From Asterochloris sp. CNOR1 (taxonomy: Eukaryota > Chlorophyta > Trebouxiophyceae > Trebouxiales > Trebouxiaceae): a stretch of 64,000 bases of DNA. Shown here in pieces: positions 965 through 64,000 of the stretch. The notes under the pieces were generated by a model, which was not told where the DNA came from, searched no databases, and worked only from the letters and a program-made list of their open reading frames with translations. The DNA lies in the NCBI GenBank assembly GCA_963969365.1, contig OZ017759.1, positions 1 to 64,000 of the forward strand, read 5' to 3'. A program made the translations under genes and the position numbers. The stretch's first letter is position 1. Each line of letters opens with the position of its first letter.

Positions 965-3528
965 TCATCTGTGTGTCCAGTGAGGTTGACGCTTCTCCAG
1001 GAAGGCAGCCATGCCCTCCTTCTGATCCTGAAGGGCAAACGCTGACCAGAACTCCTGCCTGCAGCAGCAGGCCCCATTCTCATGTTGAGCATGGATTGGC
1101 ACTCCTCTGCACAGGTAGAGGGTTCTCACTGATGCAAACTACAACAACTGGGTGCCAGGCAGTGCCGGACGTCAGCATCAAGCACCGTCAGGTGCCTGTG
1201 AGAGCACAGCATCAGCCCAGGGCTCACTTCTCATGGACCAGCCCATCAGATAGGGGAAGATCTTGTGCAGCAAGTACGCAGCCCTTGGCCTTGGTCACAG
1301 CTGGCCTGCTGAGGCCAGCAATCCTGCCAGCCAGGGCCAGGGCCTCAGGCAGCAGCTGCTCCAATGGGAGCACTCTGCTGACCAGGCCCCACTGCAGAGC
1401 GTCTTGGGCTGAGATCCTGCAGCACATTGTTGTTGCTCAGTCTGCACAAGCTGTCTGCGAGCAAGCAGGCATCAGCAGGGCACACCCAAAGCGTGCTGAA
1501 GTCATTGTTGTGCAGGGCTGCACATTTTGAGATTCAGCTCCACTGACAAAGCCCCTCTGCAGGGCATCCTGGGCTTGCAGCAGATCCTGCAGCATCACAT
1601 GGCAGCTAAGGCCCATGGCAGCACTGCTTCAGGCAGCCTGAGCAGTGGCAGGTGCCGGCAGAGTGCAAGTCAGGCCTGCCCAACACGGACGCTGTGCTAT
1701 CCTGTGCAGGTAGGCAAATGTGCAGTTGTAAGTGCATAGCCAGCACATCCTCAAATCACAGCCAGCTGCACGTGATGTTGTCAATGTGTTCTGCTGGCAC
1801 ATTGACGATGAAGATCCTGCAACAAGTCCGTTTGTGCTTCCCCACTGGTGCTGCAAGACTCTGCGAGACTCCGCCAGTAACTTGCAGCCATGTGCAAGTC
1901 GTTCCCCCAGACCGCCATCTGAAGAAGGCCTCTCAAATAGCTGCCATGAATGGTTCTCGGGGGCAGCCATAGGTGTAGCATGCGCAAGCTGTTGCATACT
2001 TGCCTCACCCACCCCCCGGTCACCACCCTCTTCATGACCATGCTGAGGTCCACGCCATGCTGCCCTCAAGGACATCCGCCGGTGTGTGCCGCATGAGCAG
2101 CAGGTACTTGCCTTACCTGTCCCCTGTCAGCACCATCTCCATGGCCTTGCTGAGGCCCACTGCTCTGATGAGTCGCTGTGTCCCCCCCATGCCCGGCAAC
2201 ACGCCCAGCTGCACCTCAGGCTGCAGAGCAGCAAGGCTCAGGTTGCTGGGCAGTGGTTTGTGCCTCCACCTATGTTGCACATGCCAGCAGACCAGGCACC
2301 TATCAACATTCATGCACACGCCAGTGGTTCTGGCTTGCAAGCATTTGCCTGACATCATGCCTGCTCGAATGTCTGGCTGCATAGCAGCAACACAAGTGTA
2401 ACGGCACAAGATGATCTCAACCAACCAACGTTGCCTTGTTATAAATTGTTGCAGATGCCACCAGCCATTGGCAGCAGCGCTGGGCATTCAGCACTGGCAT
2501 TTTGACATGACTGCAAGACACAGTGGCACAGCCTTTGACAGACGCTCCCAGACGTGCTGGTGTTTGTGGTCTGCGGCAACTGGGCCGGCATGAATAAACA
2601 TCCAGGGTTGTTTAGGACCAAGCCAGGTTCAGCTCTGAGGCTCCCAAGAGGGGCACGGTGCACCCAGTCTCCAACCTGAGTGAGAAGGGGCCTCCTCTAG
2701 GTGCAGCCCGGCCTGATGCCTCAAGGGCAGCACGGGGCTGCAATGCTGTGCAGGCAAGCACCGCTTACCTGCCCAAAGCTTGCGTTCTCACTGGCCCAGA
2801 TGATGTCGCACATCATCGCGAGCTCACACCCGCCTCCCAGGGCAAAGCCGTTCACTGCTGCGACCATGGGCATTCTGACCTGCACGGAACAGCCGGCTGC
2901 TGGCAGTACAATGGCAGTGAACCGATCCTGCCAGGTGCAACAGATGCTTCATACAAGCCCCACCTGCTGCAGAGCACGCCAACCCTCGAGCACCCTCTCT
3001 TTAAAGGCCTGCACCGACCACATGTCTGTAAGCAAGATGCCAGCAAATTGCCATCTGTGTCCTGCTCAACATGCAGAACATGGCGGCCTCACTCTGCTGT
3101 AAGTCAACTCTGCCAGCTCTTTGATGTCAGCACCTGCGCTCAGCAGGGCTTTAGAAAGCTTTCAGCACATGACTGAGTCCCCTCTCCCCCCACGTGCTCA
3201 GTGACCTACCTGCTGCAAATGCTTTTGTCCCCTCGCCTGTGATCACCAGGCACCGCACGCTCTCATCTCTATCCAGCCTCTGAGCTGCGTCAGTCAGCTC
3301 CCGCATGACCTGTGCGACGCAGCTTGGAATGTTGTATGGAAGGACTGATGAATGATTGATCAGATGCACAAGCCATGCCTGGTCATTGAGGGCATTCAAG
3401 GCCTTTGGCCTCGAAATGGTTAGCAGTCCGACACACTCCTGCACATCGACCTTCAGCAAGGGCTCCACTGCTGTGCACATGGTTCTCCAGCCATGCCGAC
3501 ATCCTCTGAGCCCAACAGCGTAGCACAT
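965..3528 (-). CDS. Enoyl-CoA hydratase/isomerase (crotonase family), probably mitochondrial
   Basis: Crotonase-fold enzyme that hydrates 2-trans-enoyl-CoA in fatty-acid or branched-chain amino-acid beta-oxidation. Recognised pieces in order: [12 protein letters not shown] (exon 1, 3528-3379), [17 protein letters not shown] (3309-3210), GADIKE (from 3133), [20 protein letters not shown] (about 2886-2769, oxyanion-hole loop), [13 protein letters not shown] (about 2235-2117), [12 protein letters not shown] (about 1418-1225) and the C-terminal [15 protein letters not shown] followed by TGA at 967-965. The G of GGGCEL and the E/D-rich PEV-x-LG loop carry the usual catalytic positions. The first 16 residues are basic and Ser/Thr/Arg-containing, so an organelle-targeting peptide is plausible; a downstream Met at residue 17 is an alternative start. 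Intron 1 appears to use a GC donor. The exon 3/exon 4 junction near 3093-3019 could not be brought into frame with canonical sites. Confidence 0.88.
1538..1592 (-). repeat. Junction echo of the penultimate enoyl-CoA hydratase exon
   Basis: This intronic stretch is a diverged copy of the acceptor and first ~35 bp of the exon at 1418-1373. Both read, on the minus strand, ctgcag then GATCT followed by GCCC(A)AG(G)A-GC-CTGCAG-GGGGCCT/TTTGTCAG. The copy carries indels and would break the frame, so it is not a usable exon. Confidence 0.75.
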
Positions 3529-3600
3529 CTTGTTTGGCTTTAGAGTTCCATCACTCCTCTGTACCAGGCAGGCAGCGTGCTATGCGCTGTAAGTGGGCAT

Positions 3601-63300: not shown

Positions 63301-64000
63301 GGAAGTCTAGCACAAAATAGCAACACATCTGACCAGTCACCCACCTGCCAAAATTGTCGCGCTCGCCTTCTGAGGGGTCCACAGCGCTCTCCACCACCTG
63401 CTCAGGGTCACTCACTGGCTTGTACTCGGCAGTCTCCTGCAGCAGCGCCACACATGATGAGTGCATGCATCTTGACTGCTGCAGACTGCCATTGGGCTGT
63501 CCAGCATCACACACAGGGCTCCACTCTGTCATCTCTCGCGGCAGGGTTTGTGGGCCAGTACCCCCTCCGTGTGTCCAGCCAGGCTGTCCACACAGGGTTG
63601 TACTCAATTGTGGAGGTCTCCAGCGAATGAATCACACAGCTGCCTTAGAGGACCCTAATGTGGAGGACACAGGCACTAGTTGCTGCAGATCCCTCTTGAC
63701 CTGTCTGCAGGGGCACCCACAAATTGTGCTCTGCATTCAGGAGGCAAGATGAACACCAAATTGCAGCTCGACGAGCCAGCACCCTGCTGCTGTTGCTGCT
63801 TCACACAAGGAGGCAGCCCTTGAGGAAGCAGCTGGGACGGTGAAGTGCTGAGCTGAAGGCATTCTCCAGGCAGTGGCTGCCATGGCAAATGCTGAGCAGG
63901 ACGCCTCTCGCCCCTCCAAAATCACATTACAGCGTGCTTACAGCTGCTTTACTGCAAAAGCCCACCTCCTGGTAGTGTTTGCCGGCAACGGCTTCAGCCT
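60350..64000 (-). CDS. Conserved protein of unknown function, partial at right edge
   Basis: Seven exons are visible and join in frame: >64000-63966, 63436-63345, 62567-62505, 61969-61879, 61527-61429, 60921-60854, 60497-60350. The sequence includes AEAVAGKHYQEETAEYKPVS, IYFNPTGGRRGIISPQGVD, HEEFPEDWFEGLHPDLYRAT, WITAQDPRGWFQWYCRFYQG, RRTADDERQIGRWRGVAGEK and VIRQTLLHWAYELTEADFDR, with the stop at 60352-60350. The Trp-rich core (DPRGWFQWYCRFY, then R-Q-I-x-R-W) is a pattern I know from uncharacterised proteins in fungi, oomycetes and algae. No catalytic function is assigned to it that I know of. The Trp/Arg-rich surface and lack of membrane segments or targeting signal suggest a soluble protein. 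The N-terminus lies outside the window. Confidence 0.82.
61570..61618 (-). repeat. Junction echo of the WFQWYCRFY exon start
   Basis: The true exon (61527 on) is preceded by GCTGGGATGTGCAG and begins GTGAAATCCGGGCAGAACC then AGGCACAGTGGGA. The upstream copy reads GCTGGGATGTGCACATTATC then TGTGCAGAATGAGGCGCAGTGGGA on the minus strand. Confidence 0.75.
62213..62440. repeat. Three-copy degenerate repeat in an intron of the right-edge gene
   Basis: Units share catgtggctgtggca/cagcaaagaacagaa-type sequence near 62219, 62307 and 62380, at spacings of about 75-90 bp. The last two also share agaacagaga/aggagaacag A-rich tails. Confidence 0.6.
63505..63625 (-). repeat. Two junction echoes of the exon starting at 63436
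   Basis: The true exon begins GAGACTGCCGAGTACAAGCC then AGTGAGTG. Minus-strand copies in the upstream intron read GAGACCTCCACAATTGAGTA then CAACCCTGTG (about 63620-63585), and GAGATGACAGAGTGGAGCCC then TGTGTG (about 63538-63510). Confidence 0.7.

Follow-up and report, generated by a model that had tools for sequence, protein, structure and literature searches.

Introns of Asterochloris sp. CNOR1 contain diverged copies of the exon edges that adjoin them, here called echoes. Strong echoes were found in 40 of 395 introns (264 kb, score of at least 28), for which ∼0.7 were expected in all. The phenomenon, first put forward in a preliminary description of the window (the whole 64-kb stretch of DNA that was analysed), is real and is confirmed by these counts. 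The echoes were probably left by local tandem duplications that occurred at random positions and are now old.

Gene models, controls and catalogue

The window forms the first part of contig C14 in an assembly of 21 contigs and 56.4 Mb, and opens with a (CCCTAAA)n telomere array (positions 1-543; ∼78 CCCTAAA copies, 93% match, degenerate units near the inner end). Exons were predicted over 264 kb, comprising the window, C1:600001-700000 and C2:600001-700000, by using a purpose-written gene finder that had 15 PGM exons read by hand as its seed and the same 264 kb as its training set. The output comprised 559 exons and 519 introns, and 258 of the 297 confident introns ended in TGCAG. CCT6 and ECH were fused into one predicted gene, the exons of which contain both Pfam domains. 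The expected Pfam domains were present in four of the five window proteins submitted; the one that lacked them was only a fragment (right-edge gene). PGM and its neighbour LARS were compared with public proteins labelled Astpho2, which we take to be the JGI code for Asterochloris. The predicted PGM protein (576 aa, one 12-bp predicted exon removed) showed 100% identity over its full length to jgi/Astpho2/6902/Aster-07898, and the alignment of the LARS model with Astpho2/6901 (1086 columns) contained 4 gaps and 15 mismatches. No tRNAs were found in the window with ARAGORN (bacterial mode), and no Rfam families at gathering threshold. For A. glomerata, the part of the published report available (PMC6652019) gives a 56 Mb genome, 9 introns per gene and ∼5% repetitive DNA.

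For the main test, 23 tiny predicted exons were removed, and confident exons of at least 30 bp, introns of at least 60 bp and a phase match were required, which left 395 of the 519 introns; a first pass was carried out on 376 introns (confident exons of at least 30 bp, introns of at least 60 bp). The outer 50 bp of each exon was compared with its own intron, and same-length introns of other genes served as the control. Exon starts (acceptors) matched in 17 cases against 0.2 expected, and exon ends (donors) in 23 against 0.5; the earlier statement that most copies are of the acceptor was therefore not upheld. With reverse-complemented queries, no exon start and one exon end matched, so that 40 direct matches stand against one reverse match at 790 junctions. 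Exon starts matched other introns of the same gene in 12 of 6434 pairs. The first pass (score of at least 30) gave 15 exon starts and 16 exon ends against 0.2 and 0.1 expected, and stricter exon confidence (233 introns) gave 13 and 16 against 0.1 and 0.35. Echoes were present in all three blocks (15 of 93 introns in the window, 16 of 148 in C1, 9 of 154 in C2), the window lying on the rich side, and in 17 of 39 genes. Two or more copies within one intron, as had been described, were listed for 10 of the 395 introns.

The claim survives both of the refutation tests proposed with it, shuffled exon-intron pairing and explanation by the ctgcag motif alone, because the excess remains after shuffling and after TGCAG masking. 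Once TGCAG was masked on both sides, 29 of the 790 junctions still matched (0.5 expected). The motif occurs often (9 times per kb of intron), but in the face of these numbers an origin of the echoes in chance, composition or the TGCAG motif is refuted, with practically no likelihood left to it.

Seven genes had been named before. Five of them (ECH, CCT6, ML, LARS and the right-edge gene) hold strict-threshold echoes in the window, as does a long predicted gene (16.6-33.8 kb) that the preliminary description does not name, whereas PGM and ATPD appeared only in a lenient test (junction-spanning queries at 198 junctions, 31 with a score of at least 26 as a raw count), ATPD weakly. PGM junction 36073 scored under the threshold of the lenient test. 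The copies in the window are as follows (source coordinates and strand first; controls are the number as good out of 400).

1349..1482 (-), ECH exon start, acceptor 1416, with intron flank; decayed copy 1512-1650, offset 163; 134 bp (half of it in the exon), 78%, gap 29; score 43, 0/400 controls
2091..2170 (-), ECH exon end, donor 2117; copy 1978-2062, offset 113; 80%; score 51, 0/400 controls
4960..5017 (-), CCT6 exon end near donor 4952; copy 4802-4861; 47/61 positions match
7562..7596 (-), CCT6 exon start, acceptor 7602; copy 7828-7862, offset 266; 32/35 identical
8460..8503 (-), CCT6 exon start, acceptor 8497; copy 8552-8595; score 39, 0/400 controls
12349..12376 (+), ML gene acceptor and exon start (12354); copy 12033-12060, offset 316; 79% over 42 nt; score 41, 0/400 controls
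18403..18460 (-), long gene (16.6-33.8 kb), acceptor 18448 and exon start; copy 18610-18667, score 52; weaker further copies at 18498-18539 and 18924-18938 (from the list of multiple copies)
34871..34901 (+), PGM acceptor and exon start (34880); copy 34777-34808; score 36, 0/400 controls; does not reach the strict set
47901..47949 (-), LARS exon end near donor 47882; copy 47749-47797, offset 152; 82% over 49 nt; score 37, 0/400 controls
48022..48057 (-), LARS exon start, acceptor 48054; copies 48385-48423 and 48662-48697; 83% over 36 nt; score 50
51562..51642 (-), LARS exon start, acceptor 51605, with intron flank; copies 51653-51714 and 51712-51793, unit ∼75 bp; score 59
52715..52817 (-), LARS exon end, donor 52721; copy 52570-52676, offset 145, which keeps the donor GT (gtaagg vs gtgagg); score 75, 0/400 controls
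56241..56261 (+), ATPD acceptor 56248 and exon start; possible copy 56139-56159; weak (score 27, 5/400 controls)
61496..61553 (-), right-edge gene, acceptor 61527, exon start with intron flank; copy 61573-61628, offset 77; 84% over 58 bp; score 41, 0/400 controls

Position, junction crossing and decay

The echoes are local and in direct orientation, lie on the correct side of the junction and keep the order of the source; offsets between the copies range from 29 to 849 (median 134). The median match is 36 bp and the median exon 114 bp, and in the first pass (score of at least 30) the far ends of exons rarely matched (2/277 and 0/266); tandem duplication of whole exons was rejected on these figures. 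Gain of introns through exonic tandem duplication (AGGT model) or through re-insertion of spliced mRNA would in each case place exon copies in introns. Under the AGGT model, however, the copy should abut the opposite splice site, which none of 36 does (nearest 153 bp), and the flank of an mRNA copy should match the next exon, which was seen at p≤0.05 in 2 of 40 cases, the chance level; both routes are thus highly improbable.

The copying runs over the junction. Among the 29 of 40 echoes with a match at most 8 bp from the junction, to which this count was restricted, 10 have the splice dinucleotide at the exact equivalent position (AG 4/13, GT 6/16), above backgrounds of 7% for AG and 6% for GT. 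Homology over the junction occupies 54-82% of the offset length in five window pairs (1349/1512, 2091/1978, 51562/51712, 52715/52570 and 61496/61573). Similarity of the intronic flanks was measured for 32 of the 40 echoes (in the other 8 the flank was too short) and had a mean z of 1.32-1.36, compared with 0.08-0.38 in simulated exon-limited copying; individually, 3 of the 32 reached p≤0.05, compared with 44-68% in matched simulations. In the sequence between the copies (body), tested for 33 of 36 pairs with 3 dropped as too short, homology was found in 6 of 33 by the local measure (p≤0.05) and in 17 of 33 by the global measure (p≤0.10); simulations with even ages predict it in 62-73% of pairs, against the 6 of 33 observed locally. 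The CCT6 pair 7562/7828 has no homology between its copies by this body test (p=0.59). The unaligned gap accounts for a median 0.67 of the offset in pairs of exon or junction with intron, and for 0.48 in intron-intron pairs.

Differences between exon and echo are spread evenly over codon positions (66, 66 and 73; one pair, C1 block 78359, omitted), a pattern expected of an exon that barely changes beside an intron copy in free decay. Because of this evenness the evidence leans against coding use of the echoes, and coding constraint on them was rejected. The same figures bear on the reading that selection maintains the echoes because they serve as exons or splice sites, alternative or decoy, with the exon-like part evolving more slowly than its flanks. 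Such selection would account for the missing flank homology and for the scarcity of young copies, and GT or AG is retained in some echoes; however, the dinucleotides are kept at about the level estimated for free decay at 0.3-0.4, the copies are partial in relation to their exons, and codon positions are affected alike, which makes this reading improbable. Young junction copies are scarce, scores of at least 60 being found in 2 of 40 echoes. The scarcity may be due to selection against fresh competing splice sites or to a past pulse of duplication.

Origin of the echoes

A search for local direct repeats, from which low-complexity queries and the first 600 bases of the window were omitted, yielded after merging of matches 48 pairs of exon or junction with intron and 30 of intron with intron, together with 6 intergenic pairs and 4 between exons; inverted pairs in the same classes numbered 1, 3, 5 and 0. 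Since direct pairs also occur away from junctions, local duplication is a general habit of the DNA here.

Further repeats were noted in passing. The LARS intron at 46541-46784 holds a 129-bp unit in 1.9 copies (∼95%), which is wholly intronic and among the few local duplications that are young. A predicted gene for a GNAT-type acetyltransferase has a decayed minisatellite (CCTCTGTGTGCGGC-like) in one of its introns (15135-15323). The long predicted gene (16662-33802, -) carries leucine-rich-looking and Pro-Ala-rich repeats, with exon-exon tandem units at 27108-27207. Overlapping repeats at L022:5943-6350 (offset ∼185 bp, 133 bp at 100%) cover predicted exon and intron and represent a recent duplication, and a strong inverted-repeat cluster at L009:3242-3707 was the main source of inverted matches in the control scan.

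By query window, 26 matches were found at the junction and then 19, 6, 4 and 1 deeper into the exon, the rate being near zero 72 bp into the exon; intronic query points gave 1-8 matches each (220-360 windows per point). Simulated random placement with unit medians of 60-90 gave a fall-off of 1:0.57-0.73:0.24-0.44:0.11-0.25:0.03-0.13. Random units would produce this exonic fall-off because exon sequence enters the intron only by way of a junction-spanning unit and because selection preserves the exon copy. In these simulations random local tandem duplication yields the junction peak, and a junction-specific mechanism is not needed.

The mechanism suggested in the preliminary description is accordingly retained in part: local duplication across the junction, repeated in some introns, agrees with the data. 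Seeding at the TGCAG acceptor is unsupported, because donors were matched at least as often and masking leaves the excess, and because intron-intron repeats are common and random placement gives the junction peak; TGCAG-seeded duplication was rejected on donor-acceptor parity and the excess after masking. Seeding at the junction in a wider sense, in which repair or template switching moves ∼40 bp of exon edge into the intron with the intronic part excluded, would suit the peak at the junction, the near absence of matches at a depth of 72 bp in the exon and the lack of visible intronic homology in most pairs, even at 90% exon identity (7562/7828). Against it, mean flank homology exceeds that of simulated exon-limited copying (z>3 in 5/32 vs 4%), splice dinucleotides are copied too, acceptors are not favoured, and old random tandem duplication accounts for both peak and fall-off; it is considered unlikely.

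According to the preferred explanation, old and randomly placed tandem duplication, units of roughly 60-150 bp would arise anywhere in genes. Where a unit lay over an exon-intron boundary, the gene would work if the outer site (second acceptor or first donor) were used, and a spare copy of the exon edge would thereby end up within the intron, on the correct side and in direct orientation. Selection on the protein would preserve the exon, and the intron copy would decay. Junction pairs would remain recognisable for longer than all-intronic pairs because selection keeps the exon half, and the intronic halves would be mostly unreadable because most surviving echoes look old.

Simulation points to a tandem origin for most echoes, to random placement and to old age. 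Settings for substitution, indels and unit length were assumed, so that ages are in model units. Simulated old duplications (0.35±0.08) gave score quartiles of 31/36/48, a length of 38 and z>2 in 38%, compared with 31/36/43, 36 and 31% observed; an age of ∼0.35 neutral changes per site fits best, and ages of ∼0.35-0.4 would reproduce scores near the threshold, match lengths (36-38 bp) and weak flank homology. An even-age model with scrambling by large indels was rejected (z>2 in 68-73% vs 31% observed). For the number of junction pairs per intron-intron pair, an old set predicts 3-5.5 and even ages 0.7-1.3; the observed 48 to 30 lies between both models, and ages would therefore be mixed or differ between the classes. 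In the models, no single age distribution fits both classes of pair, intron-intron pairs being too many for a purely old set. The offsets (median 134) are also longer than the units that reproduce the exon fall-off best, and growth between the copies after duplication is assumed as the explanation.

Related systems and intron growth

The nearest likeness, as far as the accessible part of the report goes, is the potato RdRp gene (PMC4974935), in which a tandem duplication takes in the beginning of an exon together with the 3' part of an intron; there a new intron and an inserted exon were made, whereas here the spare edge is seemingly silent, the intron is an old one and 40 of 395 introns are affected. 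Internal gene duplication (Gao and Lynch 2009, as cited in the portions available of PMC4974935 and PMC3443670) likewise takes place within genes and includes splice sites. AGGT intron gain shares with the echoes the feeding of introns by local tandem duplication, but here existing introns grow and the copies lie away from the opposite splice site. Introners, in the part available of PMC9860276, also add intron sequence genome-wide, but as one element copied in many genes, whereas echoes match the intron of their own exon; introners were rejected on the same comparison within the 264 kb (0.2 + 0.5 matches in introns of other genes vs 17 + 23 in their own). Single cases and the general process of junction duplication are already known. 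Among the matches listed in the open-licence literature, judged by titles and the starts of abstracts, there was no genome-wide survey of splice-junction duplication relics. The echoes are best seen as a variant of internal tandem duplication, a known process; the variant is quantified here, occurs genome-wide and is tied to longer introns.

The link to intron growth made in the preliminary description agrees with the lengths. Echoes were present in 0/85, 6/149, 18/108 and 16/53 introns in four successive length classes, from <200 bp to >550 bp. Introns with echoes have a median of 488 bp, compared with 290 bp, and after subtraction of one offset (351 bp) they are still longer (p=0.012). Each event would have lengthened its intron and left the protein unchanged, because the outer splice site would have remained in use; which site is in use today is likewise something that we infer. 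Echoes may also mislead annotation, as the 12-bp PGM exon predicted by the gene finder (35919-35930) is absent from the public protein. The region of this predicted exon in the PGM intron repeats tgcag together with gtacaa/atacaa words.

To our knowledge, intron lengthening in transposon-poor genomes is poorly resolved. A selected exon beside its decaying copy provides a countable and roughly datable record of intron growth from one genome, for which relatives are unneeded. Should the old-age model be correct, only ∼11-18% of the duplications that spanned a junction could still be recognised today (unit medians 60-90), and the 48 detected pairs would represent ∼270-440 events in ∼400 introns, near one per intron. 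Only tentatively can it be proposed that the introns here owe much of their length to an old pulse of local tandem duplication that has largely ended; if so, junction echoes would be a readable clock of intron growth within a single genome.
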